Source of the DNA: a virus
Strand: one strand, 5' to 3'
Length of the DNA stretch: 64,000 nucleotides
Virus record (IMG/VR): IMGVR_UViG_3300032285_001268
Coordinates: 121,263 to 185,262 of that record
The position numbers and the translations under genes were made by a program. Numbering within the stretch: position 1 is the stretch's first letter; the number at the start of each line of letters is the position of its first letter. Shown here one piece after another: positions 19,678-55,327 of this stretch. The notes under the pieces were generated by a model. That model worked only from the letters and a program-made list of their open reading frames with translations, made no database searches and was not told the DNA's origin.

Positions 19678-22600
19678 TGGCTGACAGTACCAACCCTAAT
19701 GCTAATAATTCTATTGGATCAAGTTTAATACCTGCGTTCTATCGCACGGATGCAAATAAAAAGTTTATTCAATCAACTATTGATCAGTTAGTAAATCCTG
19801 GAACTGTTAAAAAAGTAAACGGATTTATCGGTCGACAATATTCAAAAGCAACGACCGGTTCTGATATATTTGTCGAAGCCGCCGATAGTCTACGCCAGCA
19901 CTATCAGCTAGAACCGGGTCTAGTAGTTAAAGACAAATTAGGAAATGTAACATTTTTTAAAGATTATATTGATTATATCAATCAACTAAATGTGTTTGGT
20001 GCAAACACATCTAACCATGCAAAACTTAATCAACAAGAATTCTATTCTTGGGATCCGCATATTGATTGGGATAAATTTTCAAATTTTCAAAATTACTATT
20101 GGTTACCTTATGGCCCTGAAACGATTAAAATTCAAGGTCAAAAGCAAATAGTATCAAGTACCTACAAAGTTGATTTACAAATAGTAGGAGCAGATAGCCA
20201 GTATGTGTTTACCCCCGACGGTCTAACACCGAATCCGTTAGTAAAATTATATAGAGGTCAAACATATACATTTGTAATCAATAGTCCTGGAAATCCATTT
20301 AGCTTGATGATCGAACGAGCAACTGGCACAGGAACAAGATACGTAATCGGCGGTATAGATGCACAAGGAGTTGAACAAGGAACAATAATCTTCCAAGTTC
20401 CTGTAGATGCACCGAGCATTTTATTTTATCAAAGCGAAACAGATATTAATCTAGGTGGTGCCATTGAAATTTTTGACATAACGGATGAAACATATATTGA
20501 TGTTGAATCTGAAATTTTAGGAAAATTGTCTTATACCTTTATTGACGGCACACATTTAAGTAATGGAATGAAGGTGTCTTTTGCAGGTAATGTTACCCCG
20601 GCAAGTTATTCTTCTGGAGAATATTATGTCGAAGGTGTGGGATCTGGAATAAAATTAATCAACAAAGATGTATTAGAAGTTGTTAATTCCTATTCGGTTC
20701 CTGAAACTATTCTGTTCGACTCGGCTAATTTTGATACTGAACCATTTAGCGATTCAAGCGGATTTGCCAAGTCTGCAGATTATATCACAATCAACAGAGC
20801 CAGTCAAGACCACAACCCGTGGACACGGTACAACCGTTGGTTTCACATTGATGTGATCACCGCAAGTTTTAATTACAATAAAATTCCAGTCTCAATCGAT
20901 CAAAATGCTCGAGCAACTAGACCGATTATCGAATTTGAAGCAGGTTTGAAATTATATAATTTTGGAACAACTGCAACTGTTGATGTTGACCTTATTGATA
21001 ATTTTACATATGATGTATTTTCTACCATCGAAGGGTCTACCGGTTATAATATTGACGGCGTCGCCCTAACTCAAAATCAAAAAATATTGTTTACCGGCGA
21101 CCCTGACACGCTTGTCAACGGAAAAATATTTCAAGTTAATTTTCTTAATATTGAGGGATCGATACAGATCCATCTAGTTGAAATTGCTAGTCCAGTGTTT
21201 GGCCAAACCGTTTTAGTAAAGTCTGGTAGTAAGAATTTAGGTTTAATGTACTGGTACAACGGAACAGCTTGGATTAAAACACAGCAAAAAAATAGTGTAA
21301 ATCAGCCACCGCTATTTGATGTAATTGATAATACTGGAACAAGTTTTTCAGATACCACAGCTTACCCTGGAACAACATTTGTTGGAACTCCAATATTTTC
21401 ATACAAGGTCGATTCTACGTCATCAGTCATTGATACTAAACTTGGATTTGCACTAACCTATAAGAATATCAACAATATCGGCGATATCGTTTTCAACTTT
21501 GACTATGCTACAGATGAATTTCAGTACAAGGTAAATCAAGGATTAGTTACAAAGAGTGTTAGTCTTGGATTTTTATCTTCTCGAGATTACAGAGGAAATA
21601 TAGTCTTTAAAAATGGTTGGCAGATTTCTCTAGCAACCAATGTACAAGCAGCCATTCGAGTTTATAAAAATTCTAATCTAACAAATAATTTTAATATTGA
21701 TATTTTTGATAATTTAAACGACCTCAACGACCTTGCAGTAAAAATTTATATCGACGGCGATTTTATCAATCCATCAAACTATAAAATAGTTGACGGTCCT
21801 GTTTATAAAAAAGTTGTTTTAAATTCTAACATTACTTCTTCACAGATTCTTACTATAAAAGCATTTGCTTCACAACCTATTAATTCAAATGGGTTCTATG
21901 AAATACCTTTAAATTTACAAAACAATCCATTGAATGGCGTTGTAACAACATTTACGTTAGGTGAAGTTTCGGCGCATGTAAAATCTATAGTAGAAAACTT
22001 GTCAAACTTTCAGGGAAGTTTTCCTGGTGCAAGTAATTTAAGAGATCTGGGAAATATTACTCCGTATGCTACAAAATTTATACAGCACAGCGGCCCAGCC
22101 AGCCTTAGCATTTATCACGTAGCCAATGAATCTAATAATATTATTAAGGCTATAGAAAAAAGTAGATATGATTATTCTCGATTCAAGAAAGATTTTGTAG
22201 CAAGCATTGAAAAATTAGGAGTAGATGCAGATCCAAAAACACAAGTTGATCTAGTCTTACAAAAATTAAACGCCAACAAATCTAATAAAGATTCCTATTA
22301 CTTCAGCGATATGGTTCCATATGGTGCAAGCATTGATACTAGCCACACCGTTGCTGATTATAGAATAAAATCTTACCCATTGACATCGGTATTTTCTTTA
22401 GATTCTCTATCTAATAAATCAGTACTGGTCTATTTAAATGGAACACAACTGTTAAATGAAATTGACTATGTGTTTAATAATCAAGGATTTGTAACGATCC
22501 AGGATACTGTTACTATGCGTAATGGTGACGTCCTTAAAACAATTGAATACGATAATACCGACGGTAGTATGGTTCCGGAGACGCCTACTAAACTAGGCAT

Positions 22601-25600
22601 ATGGCCAAAATTTCAACCTAAGATGTTTTTAGATCGCACACTGGTAAATCCGGTTGAAGTGATACAGGGACACGACGGTAGTATTATCAAAGCCTATGGC
22701 GACTACAGAGATGCAGTATTATTAGAATTAGAAAAGCGAATTTTTAATAATATTAAAATAAAATATGATACTTCAATTTGGGATATTGCAGATGTAATTC
22801 CTACATTCAAGCGACAGCTACCATATTCACTAGAAAATTTTAATCAAGCACTAGCTCCTAGTTTTTATTCTTGGGCTTCACAATCGGGATTCGATATCGG
22901 CCGTCCAGTTAGTTTTGATAATAATAATAGTTTTACCTACAACTATCGAGGTTACTCTTCTTTAACAGACGGAAATGTTCCGGGATATTGGAGAGGAGTA
23001 TATCGATGGATGTACGATACTGACAGACCAAATATTTGTCCTTGGGAGATGCTAGGATTCTCAATAGAGCCATCTTGGTGGCAAAGCCTGTATGGTCCGG
23101 CACCATATACTAGTGACAATATAGTCATGTGGACTGATATCTCAACTGGCACGGTTCGCACCCCAGGAAGTACTCCTACAGTTAATAGCAAATATATAAA
23201 ACCGTTTTTATTAAATCATCTACCTGTTGACGAATCAGGAAATTTAGTAAGTCCAATATTTTCCGGCGTAGTCCGTGGTCTTATTTCTCAAAAGGTAGCT
23301 ACAAATTTTGTATTCGGCGATGTCGGTCCAGTCGAATCAACATGGAGAAGAAGTAGTCATTATCCGTTTAGTGTATTGTTAGCATCTATACTACTAACTC
23401 CGGCAAAAACATTTGGTTTATTATTTGATAGATCAAGAATCGCCCGAGACATGTCGGGACAACTTGTTTATACTGATACTGGCTTGAGAATATCTCCTGA
23501 CTCATTGTCTTTACCAAGTGTCATTACCAGCGACACACGAGTGTCAACCGCTGGAATTGTCAATTACCTAGTTAACTATATTTCCGGAACTACCTCGGAA
23601 TTTTATAACGAGTACAAATATAATTTACAGCATTTGTCAGCGCAGTTATCATACAGAGTCGGCGCATTTACTGGAAAAGAAAAATTTAATTTACTTTTAA
23701 ATTCTAAGAGTCCATCTAACACCGGAAACATTTTTATACCCCAAGAAGATTATGATATAATATTAAATTCTTCTAGTCCAATTCAGAAATTAACTTATAG
23801 CGGCATCGTTATCAGTAAGTTGACAGACGGATTTGAGGTCAAGGGATATAGTCAAACAAAACCTTATTTTATATCTTATCCTTGGTCAGTATCTGGAAAT
23901 TTAGTTAATGTCGGCGGTATATCTGAAAGTTTTCAAACATGGAATACAAATAGTCAATATCAAAAGGGTGATGTTGTTCTATATGGAAATTCATATTATA
24001 GAGTGCTACAAACAATTAGTAGCGGCCTAGTATTTGAATCACAGAACTATAGTAAGATGGCTTCACTGCCAATCATAGGTGGTGCAAATGCCTATTTCAG
24101 AAAAATGTTCAACAAGAATGTACAAACAACAGTACCTTATGGGACAAAATTTACAACAATACAAGATGTTGTTGATTTTATCTTAGGCTACGGAGAATAT
24201 CTAAAAGATCAAGGATTTATTTTCGACGACTTTAATTCTGGACTTAGTGCAGTAGCCAACTGGGAAACATCAGCTAGAGAGTTTATGTTCTGGTCAATCC
24301 AGAATTGGTCTACCGGACAAGACAAGTGGGCCGATTGGCAACCAAATACATCTTATCCGTTCGGATCGATTTTGAGAATCAATGGAGAGTATTACAAGGC
24401 TATCAGAACTGTTCCTGCTGTAGCATCATTTCCATATGATGATTTTGTTCATTTAGATGGTCTTAGCACAATTGGTAGCTCTGCTATAAGCCTAAGTCCT
24501 AGCGCAAATAAAATATCATTCACTACAAAAAATGCTGTAGTTGATAGTATCACAAACGGATTTAATCAATACGAAATTTATAAAGTCGATGCAACTGCAT
24601 TATCACCTAACTTCATAAATTTCTATAGACAAGACAATTCTGTTAGTTATGGTTCTCGAACATCTGACGGAATTTATGGCGCAAGTTTTTACCTAGTACA
24701 AAAAGAACATGTAGTTATTCTTAATAATACTACTCGATTTAATGATATCATATACTCTCCAGAGACTGGGTATAAACAAGATAAAATTAAAGTGTCTTCG
24801 TATGTTAGTAGCGATTGGACTGGTGGTTTAAATATTCCTGGTTTTATATTTGACGAAGCCGCTGTAGAAAATTGGTTGCCTTACAAAATTTACTATCCTG
24901 GCGATTTAGTTAAACAAGGGCAATATTACTTTCAAGCTAATCCTATGGGATCGTTTGTGCCAGCATCTGCTACATTAGATACAAAGCAATGGCAGCAATT
25001 AAAGACAAAACCGTCTTCTAAACTAATACCAAACTGGACATATAAGGCAGGACAGTTTACAGATTTTTATAATTTAAATAGCGATAATTTCGATGTTGCA
25101 CAACAGCGAGTTGCACAGCATCTCATCGGTTATCAAAAGCGACAATATCTTGAAAACATCATACAAAATGATGTAAGCGAGTTTAAGTTTTATCAAGGTA
25201 TGATACGTGAAAAGGGAACACAAAATGTTCTTAATAAATTATTTGATGTATTAAGCTCTGAAAATAAAGAAAGTCTAAAATTTTATGAAGAATGGGCCTT
25301 GCGTGTTGGACAATACGGAGCCAGCGGCTCTTTTGAAAACATTGAATTTGTTTTAGACGAGGCTTTATTTAAAAACAATCCTCAAGGCTTTGAATTAGTT
25401 AACAGTGTTGATTCGACCAAGTACGATTTTATTATAAGGCAAACTCCGAACGACGTATACGTTAAGCCATTGGGATATACTTCAAAACCTTTCCCTATAG
25501 CAACAAACTATACTCCAATTTTGAGATCTGCAGGATATGTAAGGTCTTCAGACGTGTTTAAAACATTGACCACTATCGATGATATTGTCTATGAAGATAT

Positions 25601-28600
25601 TACACAGTATACTAATGGAAGTTATGTATGGTGTACATTTGAAAAATCAGAATGGAATATCTATCGATTTACAGATGTAAATTTAATAGTAACAGATGTT
25701 ACATATGATGATACTATTAAAACATTAACCATTGTTACACGAGATCTTGTTACACTAACAGCCGGAACATATATTGGTATATCTCAAGTTACAGGATTTC
25801 CTGGATTTTATAAAATAACAAGTGTTAGCCTAAACAATATTATAATCAAAACAGAAGTTCCTGGATTTTTATCTCCGTTTTTACAGCAAGATACTATAAC
25901 AATCTATGCACTACTGACTCAACGTGCATCGTCTGTTGATAACATTGACAGCATTGTTCCTAGAAAATTAAAAGAAAACGAATTGCTGTGGACAGATGAC
26001 GACGGTAGTGGTAAATGGGCGGTATGGAAATATAATTCAGTTTTTGCTAAAAAAGAAATTCCAAATACATCTCCAGCATATTTGTTAAGTTATGGTCGCT
26101 CTATAGCTATTCGCAAGGATGGGTATACTGTTGCAACATCAACAAACGACGGAATAGTAATTACCTACGACAAGTCTAGCGTAGCACAACCTTGGATACA
26201 ACGTCAAACAATTCAGAAACCCTACGTCGAACCTTATAATTTCAATTATACCAAAGATTTTGCCACAGTGATTGCCTTTAGTACAGACGGCAGTTGGTTA
26301 GCGACAGGCTCTCCAAATGTTGGACAAGTATATACAAGATTATCAACACACAATGCCGGGCTATGGGATTCTGCCTACGATGCCTATACAACCGGTACGA
26401 TTGTTTACGTATTAGATTCTTCTCACAACCGTGTGTATTATGAAGCAATTTCAACTCTAGCAGTTCCAGTAAGCACCCCAGTTAACAATATTTTATACTG
26501 GAGAGAAAAATCATATGTGGCTATTGATTATCAAGGACATACATCTGGGATAACACTTCAAGGGGTGGTATCTTTATATCAGCGAGATGCAAATAACAAC
26601 TACATTTTAGTAGATACGATAGTCAGTCCTTACCCAGCCCAAGGAGAATTGTTTGGTTCTTCTTTAGTGTTTGGACAATCTACATTGTTCATCGGAGCTC
26701 CGGGTTATAATGGCGGTGTTGGTAGAGTGTATGAAATTTCTTATCTAACTAAATTACGAGCCACTTCATCTTATAACCCTGTTGGTAGTTCTGGTACAAC
26801 TATAGTGCTGACGTCAACAGCCGGAATTTCTTCAGGCATGATTGCACAAGGCACTGGTCTGACTGATAATCAAACAGTTATTGAAGTACTAGCCGATGGA
26901 AAAACTTTAAAGTTAAGTGGAATACCTAACGCAACTCCTTCGGGGAACATAAATTTTGTCACAGTTGGATGGAGTTATGTTTTATCTAATACTAAAACTG
27001 GTAGAATTTCTTCAAGAAACTTTGGTACTAATGTCTCACTGAGTACAGATGAATCAAAACTAGCTATTTCAAGTACTACATTAACTGTTGATAATTTAAG
27101 TTTAGGAACAGTTGACATTTATAGCGGGTCAATTAATCAGGTCATAACAGGCAACGATAGTTCATTTGGTCAAAGCATATCATTATCATCTGATGGTGCT
27201 TATCTAATAATAACAGATAGCCGTGCAACAGAAACAAAGACTAATCAAGGCGCAGTATACATTTATCGTTATGATCCGACAACTTCAAACTATGGAAGCT
27301 ATGTTGGAACATTATTTGTTGCCGGAACACCTTCGCAGGAATTAATTAACCATCAACCTGAAGTTTCAGGTTACTTTGGAAATACTGTGTCGTTTATGGA
27401 TGACGACAATATTGCAGTGTTTAGTCTAAATGAATCAACAGTTTTACCGATGACATTTGATTCAAAGGCTACAACATTTGATAAAGATTCAACAGCATTT
27501 GTAACAATACATTCCGGTAGCGGTCGCATTGACATTTATACTCGATATGTATCTAACTGGGTATATAGCGAAACTTTAGATTCAGATAATGTTGCAGGAG
27601 ATGGATACGGAACAGGAATTGCAGTTTCTGGAAATCATGTGTTTGTTGGAGCGCCATCGGCTTACGATGTATTAAGTCGAGTTTCACCACAGGCTATTCA
27701 AGTTGGAAATCGATATCAAATTGTATCTCTTGGAACTACTGATTGGAATACAGTTGCAGGTACTACTAGAGTTAGACAAACATATTCAGTAGGAGATACA
27801 TTTATTGCAGTTGCTACTGGAAGCGGAAACGGCATCGTATCTCTTTTAACTAGATCCGGTAAAATTTATAGCTACGATAAAAAACCAAATAGTCAAAGTT
27901 GGAATATAATTCATAGACAAATTGATGTTCCTGACGTTACTAAAATTAAAAAAGCGTTCTTGTATAATAGAAATACAAATCAACTAGTAACATACATCGA
28001 CGTTGTTGATCCGTTACAAGGAAAAATTCCTGGAATAGCCGAAGAAGAAATCAAGTATAAAGCGTTCTATGATCCAGCAATTTATTCTCAAGGTGATTCG
28101 TTAGTTGTTACGGTAGACAGCACAATATCGTGGGGCTCTGAACATGTTGGTCAACTATGGTGGGATTTAAGGACTGCTAAATTTATTAATATTTTTGAAG
28201 ATGATGTTGTTTATCGAAACAGCAATTATAGCACTTTAGCGCATGGTGCAAGCATTGATATCTATGAGTGGGTATCGTCGTCATTGCTACCCGAAGCCTG
28301 GGACGCCCTAGCCGATACTACCCCAGGACTAGCACAGGGCATTAGCGGACAATCGTTGTATGGTAATAGTTCATATTCTATTAGTCAACGATATGATACC
28401 ATAAGTCAGTCATTTAAAAATACATATTATTTCTGGGTTAAGAACAAAACAATAGTACCAAATATCTCTGGAAGAAATATATCTGCTGGAGAAGTATCTT
28501 CAGTGATTGCCAATCCTCGAGGCCAAGGATATAAATTTGTCGGACTAACCAGTAGCAATTCCTTTAGTATTGTAAATGCTAAAAATCTATTAGCGGGAAC

Positions 28601-31600
28601 TGATATTGTACTGTCGTTAGAATATTGGTTGACTGAAAAAACAAATCAAAATGTCCATAGCGAATGGAAGATTATTAGCGAAGATCCAACTACAGAATTA
28701 CCTATTGCTATTGAACAAAAATGGTTTGATAGCCTGTGCGGAAAAGATACAAACGGAAGACAAGTTCCCGATGTATCTCTACCAGTTAAACTACGCTATG
28801 GCATTGAGAATCGTCCAAGACAGGGAATGTTTGTTAATAGATTCGAAGCATTAAAGCAAGTAATCGAACAGGCTAACTTGTTGTTGATTAACCGTCAAAT
28901 AGTTAACAGTAGAGACATTACAGATTTAGAATCGTTTGACCCTATTCCATCGACAGTAACAGGATCCTACGATCTGACTAAAGATACCGATGCTGAATTA
29001 ATATTTGCCAATACTGGAGCATTTAAACGTCCGTCACTATCGCCTCAAATAGTAAACGGAAGAATAGTTGGAGTTACAATAAATCAAGGCGGTCAGGGAT
29101 ATCTAGTTGCACCATTCATTGAATTTATTGGAACGGGTGAGGGTGCGTCTGCTAGAGCTACCCTTAGTTCAACTGGTAAGATTATCGGAGTTACTATCTT
29201 ATCTCAAGGTATTGGATACACCGACTCGACAACGTGTTCGATTCGAGACTATTCTGTTTTAGTACTTTCTGATTCACAGGCCGACGGCAGCTGGAGTATA
29301 TATTCATACGATCCGGACTACGATGTTTGGTCAAGAACTAAATCTAAAACGTATGATGTGACCAAGTATTGGTCAAAGGTAGATTGGTTTGATACCGGTT
29401 ATAATCAGTTTATTGCGCCGGACTATTTAATTAACACATTTGCAGAACTTAACAGCATCGATCCATCGATCGGTCAATTGGTCAAAGTTAAGTATGCCGG
29501 AAACGGATGGGAAGTACTATACCGATATGCAATAGTTGATTCAAACGACTGGACAACAAATTATCAAGTCGTTGCACAAGAAAATGGAACGATACAATTT
29601 AATTCTTCTTTGTATAATTTTTCTAACACAGGAATCGGTTATGATGCCAGCACATACGACGGAGTAACTTTCGATACTGTTGCAAGTTTAGAATTAAGAA
29701 TTATTTTAACAGCGTTTAGAAATAAGATTTTTATAGGAGAATTAAAATCATCGTATTTAAATCTATTCTTTACTTCCATTCGATATGTTTTATCTGAGCA
29801 AAATTATGTTGATTGGATTTTTAAATCTAGCTTTGTTAAAGCACAACACAATGTTGGGCAATTAAATCAGCCTGTAAATTATCTTCCAGATAATCTGAGT
29901 AATTTCCAAGACTATGTGAATGAGGTAAAACCATACAGGACTGTTGTGCGAGAATATGTAAGTTCTTATGATGCTGTAGATAATACACAAACAGCAATTA
30001 GTGATTTTGATTTACCGCCAGCATACGAACAAGGATCTAATCGCTCAGTGTTGCCGTATATTGTCAACGATGCTATCGTTGCTGATGATACAAACATTAA
30101 CGTTGTACCTTGGAAAAATTGGTTAGATAATATCGGATTCGAAGTATTAGAGTTACAACTAGTGTCAGGCGGTAGCGGATATATCACACAGCCGGCAGTT
30201 AAAATTATTAGTTCTAGCGGTACTGGAGCATCCGGAATAGCATTTGTTACCAACGGATCTGTTAGTCGAGTTATACTACTTACTTCAGGTAGTGGGTACC
30301 TAAGTGCGCCAACTGTTATCATCGATGGCGGCCTACAAGACGGCGGCACTCCGGCGAGAGCGGTGGCATATATCGGAAATGCAGTTGTGCGAACAAACTT
30401 AATTAATATTAAATTTGATCGTCTAAACTATTCTTATACCGTGGCTGATTTAGCAAAAACAGAAACATTAGCAGGCGACGGTGTCCATGTACAATTTAAT
30501 TTAATCTGGGCTCCAGATGTTCGTGTTGGCAACACAACGGTTACTATTAATGATGTTATAATTCTTCGTGATTTTTATAAATTATCGTTTAAGAAATCAA
30601 CAGCGAAAGGATATACCACATACAGCGGTTTATTAACCTTTAATCTTCCTTCAGGATTACCGCCAGCTAAAGGTGATAAAATTGTTATCACGTATCTAAA
30701 AGACTGGAATATGCTGTCGGCTGCTGACAGAATACAGTTTTACTACAATCCAGAAGTTGGAGATATTGGTAAAGATATTAAACAACTGATGACAGGCATC
30801 GACTACGGTGGCGTCAACGTTAACTCATTCAATTTTGATGTTAGCTCTGGTTGGGGAACACTTCCTTACTACTCTGATAAGTGGGATACGTTCAGCGGCC
30901 AGTTTAACGATTACGTTATAACTGTACCGGCCAACACACATACTTTTAATTTACAGTATGCTCCGCCAGCTGGAACATTGTTAAATGTTTACTATACTGC
31001 CGCCATAGTTGATACTCACAATTCAGACGGTTCTCAAACAGTATTTACTTACAGTTTTAGTAAAGTATATTCGGACGTAACACCTACAATCACAGTTGCT
31101 ATTTCACATACAACAGCTACTCCAACAACAACCACTAACCATAGCGGTCAATATTATTTAAAATTAACATCTGTATCGGGGATAAAAGTTGGAGACGTTG
31201 TTACATCTGTATCTAGTTATACAGATGCATTTGCATATAATGTTAAGGTAAAAGAAATTAATGTATCGACTAATATAGTATTATTAGATCAAATTTTATA
31301 TCTAACTATACCAGTTAGCACAGCAATAACATTTACTAGGACCTTGGCAATACCTACCGATGCGTATGTCTACGGTGACGGTAAATTCTCATTAACTGAA
31401 CCAGCTCCGGCAGGATCTGTTATTACAATTATTGGCCGTTCTGGCACAATTCGTTTAGACGATCCGGATTATGGAACACAGGGACAAGTAAACCAAGATG
31501 CTATTTTTAATACACCAGTAGCAGACGGTACTTCTGCAGTATTTGTTATTCCTCCTGATTTTACTGTTAATGATGGAGATACGTTTACTTGGAGAAGTTC

Positions 31601-34178
31601 AACTAGTGACGGATCATTAACACCACAAAGTTCTGATTTTGATACAGTATTAGATGGCGGAAATCTAGCGTATTCGACTGCAACTGGAGTACTAGCAGAT
31701 GATATTATTGTCGACGGCGACGGATTTGTAACCCCAACAACTAGTCCAGCTCCGGAGGAAGTGGTTCCTGGACAGGTAGTAGATACTCTAGCAATCAAAG
31801 TATTTGATCAACCAAGTACTGGTTCTGCAAATATAAAAATTGACAATTATATTGCTGACGGATCTACAAATTCTTATTTGGTAACACAGATCCCAAATAG
31901 TCCACAGGCTGTAATTGTTAAAATAAACAATAATATTTTAACTCAGGAAGTTGACTATACATTTGATTATAGAAATCAAACTATAAATCTTACAACAACT
32001 CCGGCAATCGATAGTTCAATAAGTATTTTCACCATAGGATATAATGGTTCAAATATTCTTGATATCGATCACTTTGTTGGTGACGGTGTAACTGCTGAAT
32101 TTATAACTAGAGCTCCGTGGTTATCTTCAATTACTTCTTTAGTTTACATTGATGGTATTTCTCAAAATGTTGAACTATTTAAAACTGACAGCACCTACAC
32201 AACACCTAATTTTGTTGGAATTAAATTCACGTCAGAGCCTGCCCGCGGAGCACTAATATCATTTATTATTGTGGCAGGTAATCAGCAGAGTTTTGCTATT
32301 ACAAAGAAAGAAAAAATAATACCAAACGGTAGTAGCTATACCTATACGCTGTCTTACCCGGTTGGAGATAATTTGCCTAACGAAACTAATATGATAGTTC
32401 GTGTAGATCAAAATATTCTTCAAGGTCCGATCAATAGCTATTTTAATATAAAAAATAACAAGTTATCTTATACGATCGACCCAACTAGATTCGTGCCGTA
32501 TTCTGTTTCTGTGAATGATATTAAGGTATTGGCTAACGGTATTGTTCTTACTCGAGGAAAAGATTATAGTGTTGACTTAGCTGGAATTACTGTAAAAATT
32601 AATAAAACAACTTATTCAATTTATAAAAATACAGAATTAATTATTGCTGTACAATCTTCTTCAGGGTATTCATATAATCCGACTACACGTGAAATTACTT
32701 TTAAACAGCAGTATAATCATAATCAAGTAATTGAAGTGATTTCATCTTACAAACATGATATCTTAGATATTCAGCGTACTGCTATTACCATAACATCTTC
32801 ATTGCAAATTACTCAGGATACAGTTGAATATTTTAATTATAAAGAAGTAACCAGCGGTATAATTCCACTAGACAGGCCGGTGATTAATGACAACTATGTG
32901 TGGGTACTTAAGAATAGTACACTTTTAGTTCCTGGTATAGATTATAAATTGAACGATGATTTTTCATCTGTTACACTAGCAATCTATCCTGATTTAAACG
33001 ATCAAATAACTTTAATTACATTTGGATCAAATGTAATTACTTCTGGTATTGCGTATATGCAGTTTAAAGATATGTTAAATCGAGTTATCTTTAAACGTTT
33101 AAGTGCAAGTAAGAGAACTAGATTACTAGCAGATTTAAACTACAACGACATTACAATCACAGTAGAAAATGCTAGCGGATTTGATCTACCAAACCCTGCA
33201 AAAAATAAACCTGGTATTATAATGATCAGGGGAGAACGTATCGAATATTTTTCAATTAACGGAAATGTATTAGGACAAATTCGCCGCGGTACATTAGGAA
33301 CTGGAATCCCGGTCAAGCATAATCGCGGTGCGATTGTTCAAGAGATTGGACCTAGTGAAACTATACCATATACTGAAAAATTAATTACTGAACAAATCCG
33401 ATCAACTGGTTCTAACACTATTTCTACAGGATTTGTTCCTGGAGGATTTGATACAACTTGGACTTACAAGGGTTCAAGCATGACAATCAGTGATGCAACA
33501 AACCTAGCATCTAGCGCGGTTGAAGTATTTGCAGGTGGATATAGCGCCAATGTAGAATGGACTCCGTTAACTTTCTTCTCAGCAGGAACTTTAATTTCAG
33601 TAGGCGAGTATACATATACTGTTTTAATTGACCATACTAGCGGATTGACTTTCTCTAGTAATGTTACTACATACAGCCCTGAAGGAACTGTACTGTCAGC
33701 TAGTGCGGCACCTTCCACAGTTTATCAATTCTTTATCGGTAATATACGATTAAAGAAACAATCATATGCTGTACACAATTTAAATGTTGCTCCTTATAGT
33801 CCCGAGGGAGACGTGACGCTACCAGCTGACTTTACGGTTGACGGTACAACACCAGCAGTACAATTAAATACAGTATTACCATATGGAACATTAGTTACTG
33901 TGGTGAAACGTGTTGGTGTTTCTTGGGACAGTAATTTAAACATACAACAAGATAGTGGAGAAATTGGAAGATTTTTACGTGCTACACCGGGTGTTTGGTA
34001 TGTAGACGAGAAACAACAACCGCTAGTTATAAAGTCTGTTTATACATTTGATAGTACAGAAATAACATGGGATAATACAAACATTCAATTTACCGTTGGA
34101 ACAGGTTCACTTGCATCATCGTTTGATAGCAGTGGCTCGTTTGACGCTAATGATATAACATTTGATCAAGGAATCTAA
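19677..34178 (+). CDS. Giant tail/baseplate-associated structural protein (4833 residues)
   Basis: One unbroken 14.5-kb reading frame, nearly a quarter of the window. No single family is recognised. Its place right after gp6 suits a wedge-peripheral or fibre-network protein (position of T4 gp7-gp10). Visible parts: a cupredoxin-like beta-sandwich at about 183-268 (LYRGQTYTFVINSPGNPF; no Cys/His/Met copper site); a propeller-like region at about 2190-2750 with repeats of the type AFSTDGSWLATGSP and SLSSDGAYLIITDS, holding two inserted mini-domains (about 2363-2428 and 2675-2725); paired GxGY beta repeats near 3140-3190 and 3495-3550; and many short fibre-like beta repeats to the end. IRGERIEYFSI lies near 4515. 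It is translationally coupled to gp6 and probably made late. Confidence 0.9.
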   Translation: MADSTNPNANNSIGSSLIPAFYRTDANKKFIQSTIDQLVNPGTVKKVNGFIGRQYSKATTGSDIFVEAADSLRQHYQLEPGLVVKDKLGNVTFFKDYIDYINQLNVFGANTSNHAKLNQQEFYSWDPHIDWDKFSNFQNYYWLPYGPETIKIQGQKQIVSSTYKVDLQIVGADSQYVFTPDGLTPNPLVKLYRGQTYTFVINSPGNPFSLMIERATGTGTRYVIGGIDAQGVEQGTIIFQVPVDAPSILFYQSETDINLGGAIEIFDITDETYIDVESEILGKLSYTFIDGTHLSNGMKVSFAGNVTPASYSSGEYYVEGVGSGIKLINKDVLEVVNSYSVPETILFDSANFDTEPFSDSSGFAKSADYITINRASQDHNPWTRYNRWFHIDVITASFNYNKIPVSIDQNARATRPIIEFEAGLKLYNFGTTATVDVDLIDNFTYDVFSTIEGSTGYNIDGVALTQNQKILFTGDPDTLVNGKIFQVNFLNIEGSIQIHLVEIASPVFGQTVLVKSGSKNLGLMYWYNGTAWIKTQQKNSVNQPPLFDVIDNTGTSFSDTTAYPGTTFVGTPIFSYKVDSTSSVIDTKLGFALTYKNINNIGDIVFNFDYATDEFQYKVNQGLVTKSVSLGFLSSRDYRGNIVFKNGWQISLATNVQAAIRVYKNSNLTNNFNIDIFDNLNDLNDLAVKIYIDGDFINPSNYKIVDGPVYKKVVLNSNITSSQILTIKAFASQPINSNGFYEIPLNLQNNPLNGVVTTFTLGEVSAHVKSIVENLSNFQGSFPGASNLRDLGNITPYATKFIQHSGPASLSIYHVANESNNIIKAIEKSRYDYSRFKKDFVASIEKLGVDADPKTQVDLVLQKLNANKSNKDSYYFSDMVPYGASIDTSHTVADYRIKSYPLTSVFSLDSLSNKSVLVYLNGTQLLNEIDYVFNNQGFVTIQDTVTMRNGDVLKTIEYDNTDGSMVPETPTKLGIWPKFQPKMFLDRTLVNPVEVIQGHDGSIIKAYGDYRDAVLLELEKRIFNNIKIKYDTSIWDIADVIPTFKRQLPYSLENFNQALAPSFYSWASQSGFDIGRPVSFDNNNSFTYNYRGYSSLTDGNVPGYWRGVYRWMYDTDRPNICPWEMLGFSIEPSWWQSLYGPAPYTSDNIVMWTDISTGTVRTPGSTPTVNSKYIKPFLLNHLPVDESGNLVSPIFSGVVRGLISQKVATNFVFGDVGPVESTWRRSSHYPFSVLLASILLTPAKTFGLLFDRSRIARDMSGQLVYTDTGLRISPDSLSLPSVITSDTRVSTAGIVNYLVNYISGTTSEFYNEYKYNLQHLSAQLSYRVGAFTGKEKFNLLLNSKSPSNTGNIFIPQEDYDIILNSSSPIQKLTYSGIVISKLTDGFEVKGYSQTKPYFISYPWSVSGNLVNVGGISESFQTWNTNSQYQKGDVVLYGNSYYRVLQTISSGLVFESQNYSKMASLPIIGGANAYFRKMFNKNVQTTVPYGTKFTTIQDVVDFILGYGEYLKDQGFIFDDFNSGLSAVANWETSAREFMFWSIQNWSTGQDKWADWQPNTSYPFGSILRINGEYYKAIRTVPAVASFPYDDFVHLDGLSTIGSSAISLSPSANKISFTTKNAVVDSITNGFNQYEIYKVDATALSPNFINFYRQDNSVSYGSRTSDGIYGASFYLVQKEHVVILNNTTRFNDIIYSPETGYKQDKIKVSSYVSSDWTGGLNIPGFIFDEAAVENWLPYKIYYPGDLVKQGQYYFQANPMGSFVPASATLDTKQWQQLKTKPSSKLIPNWTYKAGQFTDFYNLNSDNFDVAQQRVAQHLIGYQKRQYLENIIQNDVSEFKFYQGMIREKGTQNVLNKLFDVLSSENKESLKFYEEWALRVGQYGASGSFENIEFVLDEALFKNNPQGFELVNSVDSTKYDFIIRQTPNDVYVKPLGYTSKPFPIATNYTPILRSAGYVRSSDVFKTLTTIDDIVYEDITQYTNGSYVWCTFEKSEWNIYRFTDVNLIVTDVTYDDTIKTLTIVTRDLVTLTAGTYIGISQVTGFPGFYKITSVSLNNIIIKTEVPGFLSPFLQQDTITIYALLTQRASSVDNIDSIVPRKLKENELLWTDDDGSGKWAVWKYNSVFAKKEIPNTSPAYLLSYGRSIAIRKDGYTVATSTNDGIVITYDKSSVAQPWIQRQTIQKPYVEPYNFNYTKDFATVIAFSTDGSWLATGSPNVGQVYTRLSTHNAGLWDSAYDAYTTGTIVYVLDSSHNRVYYEAISTLAVPVSTPVNNILYWREKSYVAIDYQGHTSGITLQGVVSLYQRDANNNYILVDTIVSPYPAQGELFGSSLVFGQSTLFIGAPGYNGGVGRVYEISYLTKLRATSSYNPVGSSGTTIVLTSTAGISSGMIAQGTGLTDNQTVIEVLADGKTLKLSGIPNATPSGNINFVTVGWSYVLSNTKTGRISSRNFGTNVSLSTDESKLAISSTTLTVDNLSLGTVDIYSGSINQVITGNDSSFGQSISLSSDGAYLIITDSRATETKTNQGAVYIYRYDPTTSNYGSYVGTLFVAGTPSQELINHQPEVSGYFGNTVSFMDDDNIAVFSLNESTVLPMTFDSKATTFDKDSTAFVTIHSGSGRIDIYTRYVSNWVYSETLDSDNVAGDGYGTGIAVSGNHVFVGAPSAYDVLSRVSPQAIQVGNRYQIVSLGTTDWNTVAGTTRVRQTYSVGDTFIAVATGSGNGIVSLLTRSGKIYSYDKKPNSQSWNIIHRQIDVPDVTKIKKAFLYNRNTNQLVTYIDVVDPLQGKIPGIAEEEIKYKAFYDPAIYSQGDSLVVTVDSTISWGSEHVGQLWWDLRTAKFINIFEDDVVYRNSNYSTLAHGASIDIYEWVSSSLLPEAWDALADTTPGLAQGISGQSLYGNSSYSISQRYDTISQSFKNTYYFWVKNKTIVPNISGRNISAGEVSSVIANPRGQGYKFVGLTSSNSFSIVNAKNLLAGTDIVLSLEYWLTEKTNQNVHSEWKIISEDPTTELPIAIEQKWFDSLCGKDTNGRQVPDVSLPVKLRYGIENRPRQGMFVNRFEALKQVIEQANLLLINRQIVNSRDITDLESFDPIPSTVTGSYDLTKDTDAELIFANTGAFKRPSLSPQIVNGRIVGVTINQGGQGYLVAPFIEFIGTGEGASARATLSSTGKIIGVTILSQGIGYTDSTTCSIRDYSVLVLSDSQADGSWSIYSYDPDYDVWSRTKSKTYDVTKYWSKVDWFDTGYNQFIAPDYLINTFAELNSIDPSIGQLVKVKYAGNGWEVLYRYAIVDSNDWTTNYQVVAQENGTIQFNSSLYNFSNTGIGYDASTYDGVTFDTVASLELRIILTAFRNKIFIGELKSSYLNLFFTSIRYVLSEQNYVDWIFKSSFVKAQHNVGQLNQPVNYLPDNLSNFQDYVNEVKPYRTVVREYVSSYDAVDNTQTAISDFDLPPAYEQGSNRSVLPYIVNDAIVADDTNINVVPWKNWLDNIGFEVLELQLVSGGSGYITQPAVKIISSSGTGASGIAFVTNGSVSRVILLTSGSGYLSAPTVIIDGGLQDGGTPARAVAYIGNAVVRTNLINIKFDRLNYSYTVADLAKTETLAGDGVHVQFNLIWAPDVRVGNTTVTINDVIILRDFYKLSFKKSTAKGYTTYSGLLTFNLPSGLPPAKGDKIVITYLKDWNMLSAADRIQFYYNPEVGDIGKDIKQLMTGIDYGGVNVNSFNFDVSSGWGTLPYYSDKWDTFSGQFNDYVITVPANTHTFNLQYAPPAGTLLNVYYTAAIVDTHNSDGSQTVFTYSFSKVYSDVTPTITVAISHTTATPTTTTNHSGQYYLKLTSVSGIKVGDVVTSVSSYTDAFAYNVKVKEINVSTNIVLLDQILYLTIPVSTAITFTRTLAIPTDAYVYGDGKFSLTEPAPAGSVITIIGRSGTIRLDDPDYGTQGQVNQDAIFNTPVADGTSAVFVIPPDFTVNDGDTFTWRSSTSDGSLTPQSSDFDTVLDGGNLAYSTATGVLADDIIVDGDGFVTPTTSPAPEEVVPGQVVDTLAIKVFDQPSTGSANIKIDNYIADGSTNSYLVTQIPNSPQAVIVKINNNILTQEVDYTFDYRNQTINLTTTPAIDSSISIFTIGYNGSNILDIDHFVGDGVTAEFITRAPWLSSITSLVYIDGISQNVELFKTDSTYTTPNFVGIKFTSEPARGALISFIIVAGNQQSFAITKKEKIIPNGSSYTYTLSYPVGDNLPNETNMIVRVDQNILQGPINSYFNIKNNKLSYTIDPTRFVPYSVSVNDIKVLANGIVLTRGKDYSVDLAGITVKINKTTYSIYKNTELIIAVQSSSGYSYNPTTREITFKQQYNHNQVIEVISSYKHDILDIQRTAITITSSLQITQDTVEYFNYKEVTSGIIPLDRPVINDNYVWVLKNSTLLVPGIDYKLNDDFSSVTLAIYPDLNDQITLITFGSNVITSGIAYMQFKDMLNRVIFKRLSASKRTRLLADLNYNDITITVENASGFDLPNPAKNKPGIIMIRGERIEYFSINGNVLGQIRRGTLGTGIPVKHNRGAIVQEIGPSETIPYTEKLITEQIRSTGSNTISTGFVPGGFDTTWTYKGSSMTISDATNLASSAVEVFAGGYSANVEWTPLTFFSAGTLISVGEYTYTVLIDHTSGLTFSSNVTTYSPEGTVLSASAAPSTVYQFFIGNIRLKKQSYAVHNLNVAPYSPEGDVTLPADFTVDGTTPAVQLNTVLPYGTLVTVVKRVGVSWDSNLNIQQDSGEIGRFLRATPGVWYVDEKQQPLVIKSVYTFDSTEITWDNTNIQFTVGTGSLASSFDSSGSFDANDITFDQGI

Positions 34179-34179: not shown

Positions 34180-36741
34180 ATGTCGCAACAATTAATTAAT
34201 ACTGGAATTAGGACGAACGATGGTACCGGTGACCCGTTACGAACCGGTGGCCAAAAAATCAACGACAATTTTACAGAATTGTATGCGAATCAAATTCCTT
34301 CGCAAACAAGTAATTCTGGTAAAGTATTATCAACAGATGGTACTAATTTATTGTGGATTTATACTTCAGGTGCGTATGTATTGCCCAAAGCAACAACATC
34401 AACATTGGGCGGCGTTAAAGTTGACGGTGTAACTATCAACATTGACAATAACGGAGTTATTAGAGCTTCGGGCGCAAATTCATACAATCTTCCAGTAGCA
34501 TCAACTACTACGCTCGGTGGTGTTATTGTTGACGGAACAACTATAAGGATTGTCAACGGAACGATCAGTATTGTACCTATTGCAAACATTACAGGAAATG
34601 CGGCCACTGTAACCAACGGAGTCTACACTACTGGATCTTATATCAATCCGGGATGGATTACTAGTTTAGCATCATCTAAAATATCCGGTTTGTCGACAGT
34701 ATCGACTAGTGGAAGTTATAATGACTTGTTGGATAAACCGGTTATTCCACCATCATATGTTCTCCCTACTTCTAGTACAACAACGTTAGGCGGAGTTAAA
34801 GTCGACGGTTCGACCATTACAATTAACAACGGAGTTATTAGTTCTAATCAGGCAACTGTGGGTGCTAATGCGCTTACTGGTACTACGTTGGCAGCTAACG
34901 TTATTAACAGTAGTTTAACTAGTGTTGGAACGCTGGCAAACTTAACGGTATTAAATCCAATCAATGGTAGCGTTACTGGAAATGCAGGAACAGTAACCAA
35001 CGGAGTTTACACAACAGGTGTTTATTCTGATCCAAGTTGGATTACCAGTTTAGCCTACAGCAAAATAACCGGCGCTCCGGGAACTTATACACTACCCCAA
35101 GCTACATCATCAGTCCTTGGTGGTGTAAAAGTTGATGGCACAAGTATTAGTATTAATGCCATTACTGGACAAATTAGTGCGATTGGATATTCATTACCAA
35201 CAGCATCTACCAGCACACTGGGAGGTGTTAAAGTTGACGGCGCTAGTATTACGATAGCCAACAGCACTATACAGGCAAATGCAGGAAGTTTGTTAGGATC
35301 TTCGCTGAGTGGTTCGATAGTCGGAAGTAGTTTAACAACTGTTGGAACATTAACTAGCGGTGCTATTGGTGTCGGATTTACACCAATCCCAAATACCGCA
35401 CTGGCTAGCAGTACGTTCACAATCAACAGTACAATTATAGCTTTAGGTGGTTCGGGATCAATCACAGCACCGAATCCAAACGCACTAGCATTTGGAACAG
35501 GCTTAACTGGTAGTGCAGGATCTTCTTATCAAGGTGGCACATCTAATACATTGTCGATAGATACCGGTGTTGTTGCTACATTAAGTACTGCACAGACCTT
35601 GACTAATAAGTCGATGAGCGGAAGTAGTAATACCTTTACCAACATTCCAAATGCGGCCTTGGCCAATGCCAGCGTTACCATTAATGGATCTACAGTTTCA
35701 CTAGGTGGTTCAATAACAATTTCAACAGCTACTTCTTCAACATTGACAATTGGTACAGGATTAACAGGAACGTCATTTAACGGAGCCACTCCAGTAACTA
35801 TTGCTGTTGATACCGCAGTAACAGCAACGTTAGCTGGAATTCAAACTTTAACAAATAAAACGATCAATGGTTCAAATAATACTATATCGAACATTGCAAA
35901 CTCTAGTCTCCAGAACAGTTCTGTTACAATTAATGGCACTGTAATTAACTTGGGAGCTAGTGGAACAGTTACAGCGGCCGCAAGTTCGTTGACTGGTAAT
36001 ATTTTAAATGCCACAGTAACATCAAGTAGTTTAACCAGCGTAGGCACACTAACTAGTGGTGCGATTGGATCAGGATTCAGTGCTATTGGTAATTCTTCGT
36101 TGGCAAACAGTAGTGTTACAATTAATGGAACAAGTGTAAGCCTAGGCGGTAGTGTAACAGTATCAGCGGCAGCTGGAACACTAACAGGCGCTACACTAAA
36201 TGCATCAGTAGTTGGTAGTAGTCTAACTAGTGTTGGCACTATTGCATCGGGAACTTGGCAGGGAACACCAATTGCTAATAACTATATTGCCAATAACTCA
36301 ATTACTATTAACGGAACAGTAGTAGCTCTAGGCGGATCAACTACAGTTACTGGTAGTGCATTATCTAGTAGACTAACAGTTGCAACTACTACTGCGAGCC
36401 TAGCCTATCAAGCCAGCGCCACAGCCACAGTCGCAGCCGCTAAGGGATATGCGTTATATAGTATTCAAGTCAGTGCCGGAGCGTGGGTAACAGTATATAC
36501 AAGTTCAACTGCACAGAGTAATGACAGCAGTAGAAGTATTACAACTGACCCAACTCCGGGTAGCGGAGTAGTTGCAGAAACAATCACAACAACAGCAACA
36601 ACTACATCATTTACTCCGGCTATTATTGGATTTAATGCAGACGGAACTCCGGGCACAAACATGTATTTGAAAATTTATAATAATAGTGGTTCTACAAGTG
36701 CTATTACAGTTACAATCACATATCTCAAGTTAGAAATTTAA
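34180..36741 (+). CDS. Tail fibre/adhesin with LGGVKVDG repeats
   Basis: 853 residues from ATG 34180 (AAGGA upstream; an earlier in-frame TTG at 34162 is rejected). The N-terminus INTGIRTNDGTGDPLRTG with KINDNFTELY is a typical attachment segment of aquatic T4-like fibres. Residues about 65-390 hold at least five copies of a TLGGVKVDGxTIxI unit and two copies of a TNGVYTTGxYxxPxWITSL unit. Later residues carry repeats such as LTNKTINGSNNTI and SSLTSVGTLTSG. Such Gly/Ser/Thr/Asn-rich repeats form trimeric beta-shafts. The C-terminal 110 residues are non-repetitive, perhaps the receptor-binding head. It shares its N-terminus with the gene at 38403, on the other side of the protease. Confidence 0.85.
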   Translation: MSQQLINTGIRTNDGTGDPLRTGGQKINDNFTELYANQIPSQTSNSGKVLSTDGTNLLWIYTSGAYVLPKATTSTLGGVKVDGVTINIDNNGVIRASGANSYNLPVASTTTLGGVIVDGTTIRIVNGTISIVPIANITGNAATVTNGVYTTGSYINPGWITSLASSKISGLSTVSTSGSYNDLLDKPVIPPSYVLPTSSTTTLGGVKVDGSTITINNGVISSNQATVGANALTGTTLAANVINSSLTSVGTLANLTVLNPINGSVTGNAGTVTNGVYTTGVYSDPSWITSLAYSKITGAPGTYTLPQATSSVLGGVKVDGTSISINAITGQISAIGYSLPTASTSTLGGVKVDGASITIANSTIQANAGSLLGSSLSGSIVGSSLTTVGTLTSGAIGVGFTPIPNTALASSTFTINSTIIALGGSGSITAPNPNALAFGTGLTGSAGSSYQGGTSNTLSIDTGVVATLSTAQTLTNKSMSGSSNTFTNIPNAALANASVTINGSTVSLGGSITISTATSSTLTIGTGLTGTSFNGATPVTIAVDTAVTATLAGIQTLTNKTINGSNNTISNIANSSLQNSSVTINGTVINLGASGTVTAAASSLTGNILNATVTSSSLTSVGTLTSGAIGSGFSAIGNSSLANSSVTINGTSVSLGGSVTVSAAAGTLTGATLNASVVGSSLTSVGTIASGTWQGTPIANNYIANNSITINGTVVALGGSTTVTGSALSSRLTVATTTASLAYQASATATVAAAKGYALYSIQVSAGAWVTVYTSSTAQSNDSSRSITTDPTPGSGVVAETITTTATTTSFTPAIIGFNADGTPGTNMYLKIYNNSGSTSAITVTITYLKLEI

Positions 36742-36742
36742 T

Positions 36743-38341
36743 ATGACCACAGTTGCTAAAAACATTAACGATGAAATACTAATCAGCATATATCTCAAAC
36801 GAGATAAGCATGAGAATGGTATGACCTTGCAACAGTATGCTGACGGTGTTCTTGCCGGCACTCAGCCGATACTAGGACACGCAGAATTTGTTTATCAATT
36901 TGGCGCAACTGATGATGATTTAGATAACGTTGTTGCCTGGGCTGAACGAAACGGATTAACTGTTTCCGAATCGCACCACGGACAATCAGTTGTTAAAGTT
37001 ACTGGAACAGTTGGCACGTTTAATAATCTTTTTAATATTACTCTTCAAGATGTCACAGACGGTGAAAGAACCTATATGATGCCGGACGGTGACATAACTA
37101 TTCCTAGTGAAATAGCTGATGTAGTTGAATCAGTTCCCGGTTTTGATCAAAGTTTTCTTGCAGTAAAACATGCGGTAAAATTCGAACCCCAGTCAGTTGA
37201 TCCAAATGTTGTAAATCCTTTTCTAAGTGCAGTAACACCGATACAAATGGCCACTGCTTACAAGGTCCCAGCGGGCGATGGGAACGGTGGATGCATTGGT
37301 ATTTTTGAATTAACCTATAGTGGATATGTAACCGGGTATAGTACATCAGACGTGACAAGTAGTTTTACTCGTATAGGGTTAACTCCGCCTACTATTGTTC
37401 AGGTAAACGTAGACGGAGCTACAGCTAGTACAACAAGCGATGCTGAAAGCATGCTAGATATTTACTGTTCAGCAGGAATGGCGCCAAAAGCTAAGATTGC
37501 TTACTACACAGCACCGAACACTGGTAATCAATCTATCATCGATAATATATTGGCTGCTGCCAACGATACCACAAATAATCCTAGTGCCCTTGACATTAGT
37601 TGGGGAATAGGTGACGGTATACAATTTGACACAGCCTTGCAAGCCTGTGTGGCAAAGGGTATAACAGTATTTGTTAGCTCGGGTGATAGCGGAGCAGTTA
37701 ATTTAAGTATGGCGGCAACTTGCTGTAGTCAGTATATGGTTTCAGCCGGTGGCACAAGCATAAGTCTCGACGGCAGTAATAATATTACTAGTGAAGTAGC
37801 ATGGTCCGGCTCTGGAGGCGGCATTAGTAGTTCTGTAGCGTTGCCCACTTGGCAGTCCACCAGCTCTTATACAACAAAAACATCAGCAGGCGTACTAGGA
37901 ACTGCAACGTCTCTTCCAAGGAGAGGAGTTCCTGATATTAGCGCACCTGCTGATCCAAACTCTGGATTTGCATTTTATGTAAGTGGCTCTCTCCAGCAAT
38001 GGGGAGGTACTAGTGCGTCAGCACCGTTGCTAGCCGGATTATGGGTTAGACTAAACACCTTGTTAGGTACAAGGATACCATTTAATATGACTACTTGGTA
38101 TACTAATAGAACAACAATGTTTAATGATATTACCAGCGGCGATAATGTGCTTTCTGCAAACGGATATACTAATGGTTATACTACTACATCTGGTTGGGAC
38201 GCAGTTACCGGATTAGGATCACCCAAAGCTGATCAAATTTACAAATATTTTCATACAGGAACAACGTTTCCTAAATTAAATTATGGCGCAAGACCAGCAA
38301 CGGGGGTAGCGTATCCTCGAAGAACTACTGGTGCTAGATAA
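36743..38341 (+). CDS. S53 family serine-carboxyl peptidase (sedolisin/kumamolisin-like) with pro-domain
   Basis: 532 residues. Residues about 10-140 look like a pro-kumamolisin activation domain. The rest is an S53 catalytic domain with all key residues: E235 and D239 (DAESMLDI), the oxyanion D315 (SSGDSG), the nucleophile S424 (GGTSASAP), and calcium-site D462 (NDIT) with GWDAVTGLGSP at 484-494. Such enzymes cut proteins at acidic pH after removing their own pro-domain. No signal peptide or membrane segment is visible. It lies 1 base after one fibre gene and 61 before a paralogous fibre gene, so it is likely made late and may be part of the virion. It could trim fibres or digest host surface protein. 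A protease of this family in a phage tail cluster is unusual. Confidence 0.9.
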   Translation: MTTVAKNINDEILISIYLKRDKHENGMTLQQYADGVLAGTQPILGHAEFVYQFGATDDDLDNVVAWAERNGLTVSESHHGQSVVKVTGTVGTFNNLFNITLQDVTDGERTYMMPDGDITIPSEIADVVESVPGFDQSFLAVKHAVKFEPQSVDPNVVNPFLSAVTPIQMATAYKVPAGDGNGGCIGIFELTYSGYVTGYSTSDVTSSFTRIGLTPPTIVQVNVDGATASTTSDAESMLDIYCSAGMAPKAKIAYYTAPNTGNQSIIDNILAAANDTTNNPSALDISWGIGDGIQFDTALQACVAKGITVFVSSGDSGAVNLSMAATCCSQYMVSAGGTSISLDGSNNITSEVAWSGSGGGISSSVALPTWQSTSSYTTKTSAGVLGTATSLPRRGVPDISAPADPNSGFAFYVSGSLQQWGGTSASAPLLAGLWVRLNTLLGTRIPFNMTTWYTNRTTMFNDITSGDNVLSANGYTNGYTTTSGWDAVTGLGSPKADQIYKYFHTGTTFPKLNYGARPATGVAYPRRTTGAR

Positions 38342-38402: not shown

Positions 38403-40166
38403 ATGGTACAACAAGTTATTAACATCGGTAGCGCAGCCAACAACGGAGTGGGAGATCCTCTTCGAGTTGGCGCTGAAAAAATTAATTCAAATTTTACTGA
38501 ATTATATGCTAAACAAGTTCCTCCACAAACAGGAAATGGTGGAAAAGTTTTAACTACCGACGGATCAGTATTGTCCTGGACTGTAATTCCTGGTCTGTCT
38601 GCAATTAACGCAGGCACATTAGTTGGAAATACATTATCGAACACAGTAGTTTCAAGTAGTTTAACCAGCGTAGGTACCTTATCAAACCTAACAGTTACCT
38701 CTCCTATCCAAGGTACTATTGTTGGTAATGCCGGCACTGCTACAAAATTGCAATCTCCAAGAAAAATCAATGGCGTTAATTTTGATGGGTCTCAGGATAT
38801 TGTAATTCCAATTTATTCTGTCGACGCAGGCAGTATCACCGGTACAACATTAGGTTCATCCGTCGTTAACTCTAGTCTAACATCAGTAGGAACACTCTCA
38901 AGTTTAACTACAAGCGGTAATGTAGTCATCGGCGGAAATTTAACAGTTAATGGAACTACTACTACCGTTAGTAATGAAACAGTAACTAACACTGAAACGA
39001 TCACAGGGGCACTAGTAGTTAATGGTACTCTTAGTGGCGCCGGAGTTAGCACATATCTTGCAAGTCCTCCAGCTATTGGTGGAACCACAGCATCTACGAT
39101 CCGCGGTACTACTATTACAGCTACTACAGGTTTTACTGGAAACTTAACTGGAAATGTAACAGGAAATGTAACAGGAACAGTAACAGACGGCGTAGTTACA
39201 ACAGGGTCATATGCAGATCCTGCATGGATTACAAGTATATCTAGTTCAAAAGTAGTTGGATCGGTTACAGCCGCCGCTGGATTATTGACTGGTGCAACGT
39301 TAAATTCGACAGTGGTAACCAGTAGCTTAACTAGTGTAGGCACACTAACCGGATTAACAGTTACTGGATCTATAACTGCAAACACTAATACTAATAATCA
39401 AAGTTATACTACAAACGGAACAGGATCAGTAACGATTACTTCTGGAGCTACTGGTAACATTAATAACATGAATATTGGTGGAACAACAGCGGCACAAGGT
39501 AATTTTACAACACTAGCCGCAAGTTCTACAGTTAGTGGTTTAGGATTTAGTACATATCTAGCAAGCCCGCCAGCTATCGGTGGTACTGCGGCAGCCGCAG
39601 GGACATTTACAGCCCTAACAGGGACATCGTTAACTGCAACAGGCACAATCGCAATCAATACTACTAGTAATAATCAAAGTTATACCACATCAGGAACTGC
39701 TACAATTACTATGACATCTGGCGGTACTGGCTATATTGATAACATAGCAATTGGATTCACTACGGCATCTACTGGAAAATTTACAACATTAGTGGGTACA
39801 ACAAGTGTTTTAACTAGCGGTACTGGCGGTATCGGTTATTCAACTGGCGCGGGTGGATCGGTTGTTCAAGGGACTAGTAGAACGACCAGCGTTACCTTAA
39901 ACAAACCAACAGGCCAAATTACAATGATCAGCGGATCTATACCAGCAAACACTACACAATCATTTGTCTTAACAAATAGTTGCATTAGTTCGACTGATAT
40001 CGTACACGTACAGCATATTTCTGCAGGTACATTAGGATTATATAGCATAACAGCCGCTCCTGGAAACGGATCAGCTACCATTTATTTACGAAATAATACC
40101 GGCTCAGCTACACCAACAGAAGCACCACAGCTTCAATTTGTGGTAGTTAAAGCAGTAACCGCTTAG
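38403..40166 (+). CDS. Tail fibre/adhesin, paralogue of the gene at 34180
   Basis: 587 residues. The N-terminus INIGSAANNGVGDPLRVG, KINSNFTELYAKQ matches the fibre at 34180, and the unit TDGVVTTGSYADPAWITS recurs. Several SSLTSVGTLxxLTV repeats and two copies of a STYLASPPAIGGT unit follow. The tail (about 480-587) is different and non-repetitive (SIPANTTQSFVLTNSCISST). Probably an alternative or additional fibre. It has a ribosome binding site (AGGAATAGG) but no clear late promoter. Confidence 0.85.
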   Translation: MVQQVINIGSAANNGVGDPLRVGAEKINSNFTELYAKQVPPQTGNGGKVLTTDGSVLSWTVIPGLSAINAGTLVGNTLSNTVVSSSLTSVGTLSNLTVTSPIQGTIVGNAGTATKLQSPRKINGVNFDGSQDIVIPIYSVDAGSITGTTLGSSVVNSSLTSVGTLSSLTTSGNVVIGGNLTVNGTTTTVSNETVTNTETITGALVVNGTLSGAGVSTYLASPPAIGGTTASTIRGTTITATTGFTGNLTGNVTGNVTGTVTDGVVTTGSYADPAWITSISSSKVVGSVTAAAGLLTGATLNSTVVTSSLTSVGTLTGLTVTGSITANTNTNNQSYTTNGTGSVTITSGATGNINNMNIGGTTAAQGNFTTLAASSTVSGLGFSTYLASPPAIGGTAAAAGTFTALTGTSLTATGTIAINTTSNNQSYTTSGTATITMTSGGTGYIDNIAIGFTTASTGKFTTLVGTTSVLTSGTGGIGYSTGAGGSVVQGTSRTTSVTLNKPTGQITMISGSIPANTTQSFVLTNSCISSTDIVHVQHISAGTLGLYSITAAPGNGSATIYLRNNTGSATPTEAPQLQFVVVKAVTA

Positions 40167-55262: not shown

Positions 55263-55287
55263 GAATGCTCCTTAACTGTATGTATAT

Positions 55288-55316
55288 ATTATAACACCGC
55301 CCGGAGGCGGTGTCAA
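55288..55316 (-). promoter_or_regulatory. Consensus sigma70 promoter with palindromic spacer
   Basis: -35 TTGACA (55311-55316), 17-base spacer and -10 TATAAT (55288-55293), both perfect. An 8-bp inverted repeat ACACCGCC/GGCGGTGT with a 4-base loop (55294-55313) fills the spacer, looking like an operator. There is no T-run after it, so it is not an intrinsic terminator. Confidence 0.85.
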
Positions 55317-55327
55317 TCTTACCAATA

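Follow-up and report, generated by a model that had tools for sequence, protein, structure and literature searches.

The window, by which we mean the whole analysed stretch of 64,000 nucleotides, carries at 36743–38341 a gene with an ATG start codon for a protein of 532 amino acids, which Pfam, PDB, AlphaFold2 and Foldseek comparisons point out as a kumamolisin-type pro-protease of the S53 family. All features of the locus described in the following are encoded on the plus strand. Upstream of the protease, at 34180–36741, lies the gene of a baseplate fibre with a gp9/gp10-like N-terminus (Pfam T4_gp9_10_N, E 2e-7), for which the ATG at 34180 was preferred over the TTG at 34162. The last 130 amino acids of this fibre (36349–36738) form a beta-sandwich domain, named tip A, which is conserved in all cassettes, is modelled by AlphaFold2 with a pLDDT of 93 and is proposed to be a socket. 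The junction of the two genes reads TAA-T-ATG (36739–36745) and leaves a gap of one nucleotide between the stop codon of the fibre and the start codon of the protease. On the other side, at 38403–40166, follows a second, paralogous fibre which shows the same N-terminus and has no tip A.

A protein of 4833 amino acids in the position of a baseplate wedge protein is encoded at 19677–34178, and in S-CREM1 and S-H38 a protein of about 5,400–5,500 amino acids is found just upstream of the same fibre–protease pair. On the minus strand of the window, a MoxR-type AAA ATPase beside a DUF2201 metallopeptidase-like/VWA protein (54078–56416) resembles a chaperone-like pair, and adjoining SbcC-like and Metallophos genes (6656–9438) resemble an SbcCD-type nuclease. 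A psbA-type reaction-centre gene, which was looked for as a sign of a cyanophage, was absent from the 185-kb record of the phage.

Identity and conservation of the S53 protease

A sequence-only reading of this DNA had proposed a complete S53 protease with a pro-domain and had named E235, D239, D315 and S424 as its catalytic residues, and we could confirm both. The HMM search revealed a pro-kumamolisin activation domain (Pro-kuma_activ, PF09286, E 8e-16) at residues 9–135 (36767–37147), and the catalytic domain, about residues 162–498 (37226–38236), could be assigned by alignment to mature kumamolisin (1gt9, 1sio) and by Foldseek. Using phmmer, the best sequence match in the PDB was intact pro-kumamolisin (1t1e, residues 40–496, E 1e-59). 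This alignment pairs the catalytic Glu235 (37445–37447) and Asp239 (37457–37459), the oxyanion Asp315 (37685–37687) and the catalytic Ser424 (38012–38014), which is the serine of a GGTS motif, with the kumamolisin residues E78, D82, D164 and S278. The AlphaFold2 model (pLDDT 76) also has 1t1e as its top Foldseek match (E 4e-35) along with mature kumamolisins, followed by TPP1 and sedolisin and only then by subtilisins. Within the catalytic part, residues 242–466 were matched in Pfam by Peptidase_S8 (E 1e-6), a clan relative. We rejected an identity as S8 subtilase, as the Glu/Asp pair of S53 replaces the Asp/His pair of S8 in the alignment and the Pfam match is one at clan level. Judged by its sequence and its predicted structure, the protein is a member of the S53 family.

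The calcium site near the C-terminal end of the domain had been recognized correctly as well, with Asp462 (38126–38128) and Asp486 (38198–38200) at its positions, the other ligands of such a site being main-chain ones. Across 23 distinct homologues from viruses both aspartates are unchanged, as is the tetrad, and none of these residues varies in a wider viral set that includes members devoid of the pro-domain. The prodomain-less members form a subgroup of approximately 409 amino acids, in which the tetrad and the C-terminal tail described below (tail A) are kept. Close S53 pairs show dN/dS values of about 0.03–0.35, mostly of 0.05–0.2, indicating purifying selection on the viral S53 proteases.

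Viral homologues and the fibre–protease cassette

Among 50,697 phage records no S53 match was found at E values up to 1, neither with the window protein nor with the prodomain-less type as query, and no PHROGs family matches the window S53. From IMG/VR we compiled 35 S53 loci in a first scan, made without the core of the tail, and 78 in a profile scan; the two sets overlap, and the second one favours tailed S53s because one of its two patterns lay in the tail. Homologues are present on more than 70 IMG/VR contigs. They occupy the same position on at least 70 contigs other than that of the window, and as an identical separate IMG/VR contig exists in addition, an assembly error can be excluded. 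One scan of cellular genomes yielded only three distant S53 relatives (26–32%). After searching 297 more genomes (4 with a pro-domain) the viral S53s were found on one side of a branch that sets them apart from the sampled cellular ones with an SH-aLRT support of 99, the cellular sample being small.

The position of the gene had previously been explained by the two paralogous fibres on its sides. These fibres do have their N-terminal 59 residues in common with 64% identity, but most relatives have no second fibre between the S53 gene and the one that comes after it. The earlier explanation is thus incomplete, as it is the one-nucleotide coupling to the upstream tip together with the shared tail that matters and not the flanking by two fibres. 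In all 34 loci of the first scan for which upstream sequence is available, the S53 gene starts exactly one nucleotide past the stop codon of the fibre. The upstream fibres comprise roughly 340–1080 residues where complete and their bodies vary, some being collagen-like, while their shared end is one conserved beta-sandwich of approximately 130 amino acids, namely tip A. In the second scan, tip A was found upstream of S53 everywhere except in L160, which is truncated, and in L167 and L174, and the linkage is therefore near-obligate at the level of sequence. The neighbourhood is otherwise often unlike that of the window (L006/L008, L021, L022–L024 and L172), from which it follows that fibre end and protease move as one unit. 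The last codons of the window fibre form a GA-rich stretch ahead of the protease start, suggesting that translation of fibre and S53 is likely to be coupled.

Two of the exceptions, L167:3979-5662 and L174:3979-5662, carry an S53 with tail A directly behind a giant baseplate protein; a tip-A fibre is missing upstream and may be located elsewhere or may have been lost. The opposite case, a natural protease-free cassette, is seen in L129:4398-5945, where the tip-A fibre is directly followed by the gene that normally comes after S53. As tip A is also without a protease behind it in L080 and L082, neither of the two partners is strictly required for the other. The fold of tip A does not reveal its ligand, as its structural neighbours in the PDB are only weak jelly-roll matches; strong ones are found in cyanophage fibres.

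A C-terminal tail shared with S8 subtilases

The window S53 ends with a tail at residues 506–532 (38258–38338), tail A, which is conserved in the viral S53s, is predicted to be disordered on its own (pLDDT <50) and is proposed to act as a docking plug. Its conserved core, RPATGVAYPR, covers residues 517–526 (38291–38320), and the C-terminal consensus of the viral S53s is TFPKxNYGFRPxxGxxYPRxTTGxR with RPxxGxxYPR as core. The tail was found neither in kumamolisin or the cellular S53s examined nor, as a motif, on other genes of the first-scan loci.

Tip A is also present in cultured marine cyanophages, and there the next gene, usually again one nucleotide away, mostly encodes an S8 subtilase. 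These S8 proteases belong to another catalytic family and have another N-terminal region, yet they carry the tail R-P-x-x-G-x-x-[FYW]-P-R. When an HMM was built from the S53 tails alone, the S8 tails were its next-best matches among 4661 ORFs, and 15 of 18 S8 tails outscored all 200 of their own shuffles. The motif [FYW]PR occurs within the last 40 amino acids of all 40 S53 proteins and of 21 of the 26 S8 partners and, in the comparison set, in the last 30 amino acids of one out of 1005 other ORFs, counts which are not independent trials because the sequences are related to each other. The remaining five S8 proteins show [FYW]PR just after the protease domain and before an extra domain. Partners with extra domains past tail A were seen in L046:4389-7313, L106, L110, L117 and L208, those of L046 weakly resembling plastocyanin-like and esterase-like families. 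We also compared tail and tip distances while controlling for the catalytic domain (partial Mantel test); a correlation was observed for S53 (partial r 0.39, p 0.002) and was absent for S8, and with a positive result in one family and a null result in the other we do not rely on co-divergence.

A control is offered by related S8 proteases from P-SSM2, S-T4, Sf-CH5 and more than 20 IMG/VR loci, most of which are located behind fibres that end differently, in a domain named tip B. Tail A was found in none of the 20 distinct S8 proteases behind tip-B fibres, which instead have another C-terminus in common, tail B, and the models of tip A, tail A and tail B gave no significant cross-matches. Conversely, about 40 further loci show tip A followed by a non-protease of 467–656 amino acids and then by a protein of 70–92 amino acids ending in tail A, whose gene overlaps the preceding non-protease gene by 1–4 nt in most loci; this arrangement looks like an adaptor or cap. 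In L044, L049, L257 and L258–L309, which have this third architecture, the non-protease comprises 467–767 amino acids and in most cases ends with FCARTV or FCARTT. As S8 proteases behind tip B are devoid of tail A and loci without a protease have it, the tail goes with the tip rather than with the enzyme, and this switch of the tail type with the tip type is as expected if the tail binds the tip.

Probable function at the fibre tip and relation to known systems

We consider it probable that the S53 protease is carried on the virion, docked by its tail onto tip A of the fibre, and attacks protein on the surface of the host, and that this plug-and-socket mount is reused for other proteins. Fibre and S53 would be made together by coupled translation of the two genes lying one nucleotide apart, and the core RPxxGxxYPR of tail A would then plug into the beta-sandwich of the upstream fibre, a binding that we infer from the sequences and that is supported by the joint switch of tail and tip. 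During assembly the pro-domain would hold the enzyme inactive until it is removed autocatalytically. Upon adsorption the virion would present the fibre-mounted S53 at the cell surface, where it would cut proteins on or around the host and thereby clear or expose the receptor. The same mount appears to take other cargo, namely S53 with or without a pro-domain, S8 subtilases, or a non-protease together with a small tail-bearing protein.

For the location on the virion, the cyanophage S-SCSM1 is informative, for which a virion proteome of 45 proteins has been published (PMC9602691). The record of this phage labels the tip-A fibre, the downstream partner of this fibre, the tip-B fibre and the tail-B S8 protease as virion proteins. 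These labels, taken from the record annotation and the main text of the publication, concern a phage whose protease is an S8 and not an S53; they support a virion location for the fibre-tip system. The earlier guess of a late, possibly virion-borne enzyme is supported as a probable one.

Cutting of host surface proteins is the most likely of the roles that can be proposed. A tethered S53 or S8 might instead act while the particle is assembled and trim its own fibre or a baseplate protein next to it, and the tight one-nucleotide coupling to the fibre gene, the apparent tethering to the tip and the suitability of pro-domain proteases for timed activation would all agree with such a maturation. 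However, tip A also occurs with non-protease partners or with nothing behind it and therefore seems not to need cutting, and proteases of two families are found at this one tip, so that we regard fibre maturation as the less likely role and, taken by itself, as unlikely.

The same non-protease partners, taking the place of the protease, could be read in favour of a fold that serves mainly as a receptor-binding tip cap with little or no proteolysis. The gp38 protein of T4/T2, which is encoded directly downstream of the gp37 fibre and caps its tip, provides a precedent, and position and gene order of the S53 and S8 genes fit such tip-capping adhesins. If the proteins were nothing but adhesins, some lineages should have lost catalytic residues, but even distant viral S53s retain the tetrad and the calcium aspartates without exception and the catalytic serine motifs of the S8 proteins are intact, which makes this role very unlikely. 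We give the least credit to a free late enzyme that degrades host protein inside the cell or after release at lysis, in which case the tail would do no more than stabilise the C-terminus and the genes would simply form a small conserved operon. Secretion or a lysosomal location is usual for S53 enzymes and would suit it, but a free enzyme leaves the tail shared by S53 and S8 and its switch with the tip type unexplained, and in the annotations of the S-SCSM1 record an S8 homologue and the tip-A partner are virion proteins.

The fibre-mounted protease favoured here has relatives in several known systems. With kumamolisin (1t1e, 1gt9) and kumamolisin-As (1sio) the phage S53 has the fold, the pro-domain, the Glu/Asp/Asp/Ser tetrad and the calcium aspartates in common, and in comparison to kumamolisin it adds a conserved C-terminal tail of 27 amino acids, the baseplate fibre cassette and a viral subgroup without the pro-domain. 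The cyanophage S8 proteases (S-CREM1, S-H38, S-H9-1, S-RSM4, P-SSM2; T4-GC 292; phrog_9158) are encoded at the corresponding place, behind a fibre-tip gene, and those behind tip A have the same tail as the phage S53 and differ by their S8 family and their N-terminal region. In S-CREM1, for which 14 virion proteins have been published, the peptidase is UYA57622.1. The gp37-gp38 pair of T4/T2 likewise encodes a proposed tip cap directly downstream of the fibre, whereas the cap described here is an enzyme; neither Pfam nor PHROGs gave a match of S53 to gp38 or to tail-fibre-assembly proteins. Tailspike depolymerases are virion-associated polysaccharide-degrading enzymes (PMC5380687) and thus also place an enzyme at the receptor-binding end, but S53 would attack protein and would be a separate polypeptide on a shared dock instead of being part of the spike.

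The annotations of the cyanophage S8 proteases go no further than protease, hypothetical or tail fiber protein, and S8 peptidases of cyanophages are named in passing in a comparative paper, while our literature search found no published link of cyanophage S8 or S53 proteases to fibre tips or to the shared tail. These S8 annotations were known before, and what is probably new is that an enzyme of the virion is mounted at the fibre tip by a device which is shared and exchangeable. Less firmly, though still inclining towards it, we suggest that the baseplate fibres of tailed phages from lakes and the sea follow a plug-and-socket code, in which tip A would pair with tail A (RPxxGxx[YFW]PR) and, orthogonally, tip B with tail B, any protein with the matching plug would be accepted, and proteases of different families or non-protease caps would be swapped between phages as two-gene cassettes.

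Our reading places a protease family that is unmatched in the cultured phage records searched at the business end of fibres, and the mount itself looks like one of general use, on which enzymes attacking the surface can be exchanged. The rule that tail A goes with tip A and tail B with tip B provides a sequence test for finding fibre-tip proteins among cyanophage genes that are annotated as ‘hypothetical’ or ‘protease’. With this knowledge, the way in which phages cross the protein layers around cells becomes testable in cultured cyanophages, as for example S-CREM1 and S-SCSM1.
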